DNA of 34,492 bases. Source: Microcaldota archaeon. Lineage in GTDB: Archaea > Micrarchaeota > Micrarchaeia > Norongarragalinales > Norongarragalinaceae. The stretch is taken from positions 1-34,492 of the forward strand of contig JACRGH010000064.1 of assembly GCA_016212375.1 (NCBI GenBank), read 5' to 3'. The position numbers and the translations under genes were made by a program. Under the pieces are notes generated by a model, which was given only the letters and a program-made list of their open reading frames with translations, searched no databases and was not told the DNA's origin. Shown piece by piece: positions 32,982 through 33,297 of the stretch. The number at the start of each line of letters is the position of its first letter. Position 1 is the stretch's first letter.

Positions 32982-33090
32982 AGCCCCGTCGTCTAGTGGT
33001 CAAGGATAGCAGCCTTTGGAGCTGTGGACAGCGGTTCGAATTGTTCGAGCGTCAGACGTAGCTTCGGACACGAAAATCCGCTCGGGGCTA
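32982..33090 (+). tRNA. tRNA-Gln (anticodon TTG) with a 36-nt intron in the T-loop
   Basis: Acceptor AGCCCCG/CGGGGCT, D-arm GTCT/GGAT, anticodon arm GCAGC-CTTTGGA-GCTGT, T-stem AGCGG/CCGCT; spliced product 73 nt; TTAAAAG box about 30 nt upstream; T-run after. Confidence 0.93.
33041..33076 (+). other. tRNA intron at position 59/60, canonical bulge-helix-bulge
   Basis: Helix AGCGG/CCGCT, 4-bp helix TTCG/CGAA, inner helix TGTTCGA/TTCGGACA region, 3-nt bulges AAT (33039-33041) and AAT (33075-33077). Confidence 0.88.
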
Positions 33091-33297
33091 TTTTTTCTTT
33101 TTCATCCAGTTTTTTTCACTTTTCCGCGAAGGTTTGGTTTTTCTCATTTTCTTTTTTTTCTGCGCTTTCCGGTATTGATTGCCATTCCTGGCCCGGGTCT
33201 TTCCTCGTTTTGGCGTCCGGTTCTGTCATCTTTTTACGCTTCGTCCATTGTCGCTCGCGTCTTGGTTTTTAAGCCGCTGCGCCATTTTTACAACGCC

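Follow-up and report, generated by a model that had tools for sequence, protein, structure and literature searches.

The tRNA-Gln(TTG) gene near the 3' end of the window, by which we mean the whole stretch of 34,492 nucleotides that was analysed, very probably harbours a functional bulge-helix-bulge (BHB) intron between T-loop positions 59 and 60 that was recently gained by copying from the sister gene tRNA-Gln(CTG). This reading draws on the geometry of the exon-intron junctions, the empty site in close relatives, the type of the tRNA splicing endonuclease (EndA) and the intron of the sister gene. The T-arm region of the precursor would fold into a canonical BHB, a homodimeric epsilon-2 EndA would cut both bulges, and a tRNA ligase would join the exons into a normal tRNA-Gln(UUG). 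The intron itself would have been acquired in the species lineage of the host genome after its split from the sequenced congeners, with the intron in the T loop of the paralogue tRNA-Gln(CTG) as its source, via gene conversion or intron transposition. The host is a groundwater archaeon with a Micrarchaeota genome (G000; 1.34 Mb, 82% complete; the window is its contig 50) with 25 tRNA genes by Rfam, 14 with introns according to ARAGORN; its congeners are G001 and G002.

Table. Features of the tRNA-Gln(TTG) gene in the window, and tail-duplication loci of the three congeners
Feature	Position	Strand	Basis
tRNA-Gln(TTG) gene, interrupted	32982..33090	+	sequence and fold; spliced form equals the intronless G002 orthologue
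5' exon, tRNA positions 1-59, from acceptor AGCCCCG to T loop TTCGAA	32982..33040	+	
Anticodon TTG	33016..33018	+	ARAGORN on the spliced sequence, anticodon at base 35
Central-helix 5' strand (4 bp, bulge-helix-bulge), TTCG	33035..33038	+	sequence and fold
5' bulge AAT, expected cut after 33040	33039..33041	+	sequence and fold; BHB cut rule
T-loop intron (59/60), 36 nt, TTGTTCGAGCGTCAGACGTAGCTTCGGACACGAAAA	33041..33076	+	missing from the syntenic G001 and G002 orthologues
Central-helix 3' strand, CGAA	33071..33074	+	sequence and fold
3' bulge AAT, expected cut after 33076	33075..33077	+	sequence and fold
3' exon: T60, T-stem 3' strand, acceptor 3' strand, discriminator A73	33077..33090	+	
T-rich run 3' of the gene, probable archaeal terminator	33091..33103	+	read from the sequence
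Tail-duplication loci, G000: L016, L022, L023, L014, L003			
Tail-duplication loci, G001: L216, L219, L256, L257, L265			
Tail-duplication loci, G002: L218, L236, L242, L268, L270, L274, L277, L279			

The exon-intron junctions form a 3-4-3 BHB, in which two 3-nt bulges flank a 4-bp helix, with AGCGG/CCGCT as the outer helix and an inner helix that starts with TGTTCG at 33042. The minimum-free-energy fold of the 109-nt precursor (-41.7 kcal/mol, z = -2.06 against shuffles) includes exactly this predicted structure, and so bears out the canonical BHB with AAT bulges and a TTCG/CGAA helix that the first-pass annotation had described. Its exons and 36-nt intron agree with the sequence at every coordinate. 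It is well established that a BHB is cleaved between the second and third bases of its bulges; cuts there coincide with the intron ends, as had been claimed, and give a 73-nt tRNA. Once 33041-33076 is excised, ARAGORN calls the product tRNA-Gln(TTG), in line with the perfect tRNA that had been proposed. This predicted product is letter for letter the orthologous gene of G002 and differs by one base from that of G001; because the match to G002 is exact, chance is excluded independently. Judged from sequence and fold, a tRNA-Gln(TTG) with a T-loop BHB intron at 59/60 is real, and its splicing is predicted. A group I or group II intron was ruled out, the insertion being too short and matching nothing in Rfam. 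ARAGORN does not report the gene in the window with or without its intron options, and the Rfam tRNA score there, 24.3 bits, falls below the 29-bit gathering cut-off, so that the gene goes unreported by this route as well. As the common tools used here overlook such genes, Micrarchaeota tRNA sets will appear incomplete.

The single tRNA intron endonuclease gene found in G000 encodes a protein of 412 aa, two stretches of which match the endonuclease family. A crystal structure exists for a close homologue. The protein aligns with the ARMAN-2 EndA (4fz2) over residues 11-289 and 324-412 of one polypeptide (E = 2.7e-126), and this alignment places its catalytic Y234, H249 and K280 at ARMAN-2 Y236, H251 and K282; the specificity-loop residues Y159 and K160 correspond to Y160 and K161. 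The roles of the catalytic Tyr/His/Lys and of the ARMAN-specific loop Tyr/Lys have been described for the ARMAN-2 enzyme (PMC12397907). By its sequence the G000 EndA is of the epsilon-2, three-unit, broad-specificity type, which settles the enzyme class that the first-pass annotation had flagged for checking. Epsilon-2 EndA cuts introns at various positions (PMC4033280), and introns in the T arm have been described in archaea (PMC12397907). The earlier statement that a T-loop BHB usually needs a broad-specificity enzyme holds in that such an enzyme is present, but a canonical 3-4-3 BHB does not by itself require relaxed specificity. The best named relatives of this EndA come from Micrarchaeota MAGs recovered from groundwater, and a relative is found in 56 of 60 related genomes, among them every one of the 31 that are more complete.

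Relatives of the enzyme also occur in records labelled Aenigmatarchaeota (L163-L165, L167-L171, L174, L175, L177-L179), most of them spanning approximately residues 19-412 at 41-45% identity; the three-unit EndA may extend beyond Micrarchaeota, unless these labels are wrong. An EndA 61% identical to that of G000 lies on a contig filed as Kaiserbacteria bacterium (L139, MFMA01000035.1), which is probably a mis-binned Micrarchaeota contig. Three genomes of the f9 family (G030:C21, G035:C35, G040:C14) have a second, shorter EndA-like frame of 174-179 aa beside the three-unit enzyme.

The 59/60-intron pattern with this helix matched 26 sites, spread over 16 of the 98 relatives, and its reversed control matched one; the pattern covers one helix geometry, so that T-loop introns of other geometry were possibly missed. 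Nearly all of these sites lie within tRNA genes, of several isotypes, the sequence at one or more of them (L110) not being tRNA-like. It is because of this distribution that T-loop introns can be called ordinary for the group, and those with this motif, as identified by the pattern, are of a known kind that is common in the Micrarchaeota lineage. The first-pass annotation had associated archaeal T-loop introns mostly with thermophilic Crenarchaeota; the T-loop intron itself stands, but its host belongs to the Micrarchaeota, where such introns are common.

The genes upstream of the window tRNA match G002:C21 and G001:C6, and the HAD-type gene downstream matches G001:C6 and G002:C2. At this syntenic locus tRNA-Gln(TTG) is intronless in both congeners, and the intron is likewise absent from the family relatives G003, G005, G006, G009 and G010, in which the TTG gene was read; the TTG gene of G008 has a T-loop intron unrelated to that of the window. 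In all three congeners the sister gene, tRNA-Gln(CTG), lies in conserved surroundings and is interrupted in its T loop by an intron (31, 30 and 46 nt). The core of the window intron resembles the CTG intron cores of G000 (shuffle p = 0.0004) and G002 (p = 0.0002), not significantly that of G001 (p = 0.19) and none of five unrelated T-loop introns (shuffle p 0.29-0.92), in comparisons of cores only 23-29 nt long, where some likeness is promoted by the inner stem that a BHB requires. The two G000 introns are significantly alike without being identical, and the likeness concerns two isoacceptors of one isotype only. One base of the 5' exon is changed in the CTG gene of G000 but not in the TTG gene, so that the copied tract, if any, would comprise the 3' part only. 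Because the TTG orthologues are empty, the CTG intron is shared and the cores are similar, gain by copying from the CTG gene is favoured; the preference for gain over loss reflects parsimony across few genomes.

The tRNA-Gln gene that adjoins a putative ribosomal protein S17e gene (recognised by its initial residues alone) has the anticodon CTG in this genus (L058-L062) and TTG in several other genera (L063, L072, L073, L078, L096), which suggests an anticodon change or an exchange between the two tRNA-Gln genes at this locus.

A disrupted pseudogene that is left unspliced would fit with a gene missed by standard tRNA finders, but the exons and the BHB are perfect, the mature product equals the intact gene of a congener, and the genome encodes a matching splicing endonuclease. 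The gene is also the sole TTG gene found: a second intact tRNA-Gln(TTG), which the first-pass annotation had named, coupled with a lack of splicing of this copy, as a refuting observation, was not seen in the 82%-complete genome, where only the CTG paralogue was found. Taken together, these observations leave the pseudogene extremely improbable. A more serious contender is that the TTG intron was ancestral in the genus and was precisely lost from each congener, for instance when the gene recombined with a copy derived from the mature tRNA. Since the CTG intron occurs in G000, G001 and G002 alike, an intron may once have been present in both genes, and precise loss would yield exactly the intronless genes that are observed. 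However, two independent losses would be required if G002 is the closer relative of G000 (EndA identity 84%, as against 73% for G001), and the five other family members in which the TTG gene was read have no intron there. We consider such a history unlikely, and recent gain from the CTG gene remains the preferred explanation.

Behind a number of tRNA genes in the genus lies another copy of the gene's own 3' tail. Defined as the last 17 nt of the tRNA with at most 2 mismatches and within 500 nt, such copies lie downstream of 5/25 tRNA genes in G000, 5/30 in G001 and 8/28 in G002 (17-29% per genome; 18/83 in the genus), whereas control matches to non-cognate tails number 7/554, 4/810 and 2/708, respectively; no upstream copies were found in these three genomes. 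The count in G016 is 2 of 17, reduced from 3 by leaving out locus L292 as a contig-edge artefact, and by the same criterion G018, G103 and G104 have none. The spacing from tRNA to copy in the genus is about 75-240 nt and contains recurring motifs, the copy often being preceded by one like CCGGTTCC or GCGACCGTTC; no Rfam family fits these downstream elements. Empty sites are seen for tRNA-Pro (L278 against L023, by alignment) and for tRNA-Ile (L258 against L242, from a reading of the two flanks). The tRNA-Gln(TTG) locus of G002 is split over two contigs, G002:C21:1-230 and G002:C2:1-216 (L129, L347). One of these has the intact tRNA; the other begins with the end of an ORF, a hairpin and a tail-duplication element, and on it a second tRNA-Gln tail precedes the HAD-type gene. 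There seems to be a gene-carrying insertion between tRNA-Gln tails at this locus.

Some tail-duplication elements in G000 and G001 have at their left end a hairpin that, starting from its first bases, aligns with T-loop introns in G008 and genus g13; 0 of 300 shuffles aligned as well. This similarity suggests a mobile hairpin element that is found both at the 3' ends of tRNAs and in their T loops, with some of its insertions now persisting as introns. The element (approximately CCTTTTCTTTT..AAAAGAAAAGG..AAAAGAAAA) is dispersed across many Micrarchaeota genomes, where it is seen both within tRNA genes, as introns of the T loop or D loop, and directly next to complete tRNA genes (L202, L066 in G008, L087/L089/L090 in G028 and G015, L212, L208, L189). 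A retained old copy of the tRNA tail within T-loop introns was looked for and rejected, cognate tails being no more similar than non-cognate ones in 24 introns (p = 0.62).

Whether the T-loop introns of the lineage descend from mobile hairpins at tRNA 3' ends, with the window intron an eroded descendant via CTG, concerns the deeper origin of the intron and is compatible with copying from the CTG gene. Such descent is supported by the hairpin element found behind complete tRNAs in G000 and G001, which aligns with introns of G008 and g13, by the frequency of tail-duplication elements in the genus together with their congener empty sites, and by the 3' end CACGAAnn/TCC shared by the CTG introns of G008 and genus g1. 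Against it, the window intron resembles none of the elements significantly (best result 7/300, uncorrected for 14 tests), T-loop introns show no cognate old tail, and insertions into T loops may equally be direct; on balance this descent is doubtful. Because the window intron lacks similarity to the element, a mobile origin is a lead on the intron class and no proven history of this intron. We tentatively put forward a related scheme, with somewhat more confidence though still short of an even chance, in which members of a Micrarchaeota hairpin family insert at the 3' ends of tRNAs, often with a duplication of the tail that runs from the T loop through the final base. Some of these insertions would have become 59/60 BHB introns, and the intron of the window would have arisen later by shortening and renewed copying. 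If true, the hairpin family would be a concrete source of archaeal tRNA introns.

The kind of intron described here was already known, and the distinctive point is the unusually clear recent gain that the compared genomes indicate. One genus offers a recent presence/absence difference, a likely donor gene and exact empty sites, and its relatives add a dispersed element at tRNA 3' ends and T loops; donor, empty sites and element together make intron origin testable by comparison. The splicing endonuclease of Thermoproteales is of the heterotetrameric type. Large-scale intron transposition has been reported in that order (Pyrobaculum, Thermofilum), according to the portions of PMC4090602 and PMC4033280 that cite Fujishima et al. 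2010, and the noncanonical BHB introns, as presented there, are likewise short, lie outside 37/38, occur in several isotypes and are similar across different tRNA genes. The present case belongs to another lineage, and comparison with congeners reveals both the likely donor gene and the orthologous sites that are empty. How archaeal tRNA introns transpose is, according to a review (PMC4090602), still unknown. ARMAN-1/2 belong to the same broad lineage, the Micrarchaeota, and share the epsilon-2 type of EndA (4fz2, 9w2k; PMC4033280, PMC12397907); in the ARMAN-1/2 literature other than Fujishima 2011, no description of the tRNA-Gln 59/60 T-loop position and its distribution was found. The same T-loop junction, 59/60, is that of the permuted tRNAs of Thermofilum and Cyanidioschyzon (PMC3218864), but the window gene has its parts in the normal order, and what separates them is an intron. 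Gain of a tRNA-Thr intron in Caldiarchaeum populations, for which an integrated mobile element was proposed as carrier (PMC3293823), offers a parallel in the presence or absence of an intron among close relatives, whereas in the genus studied here the likely donor is a paralogous tRNA gene.
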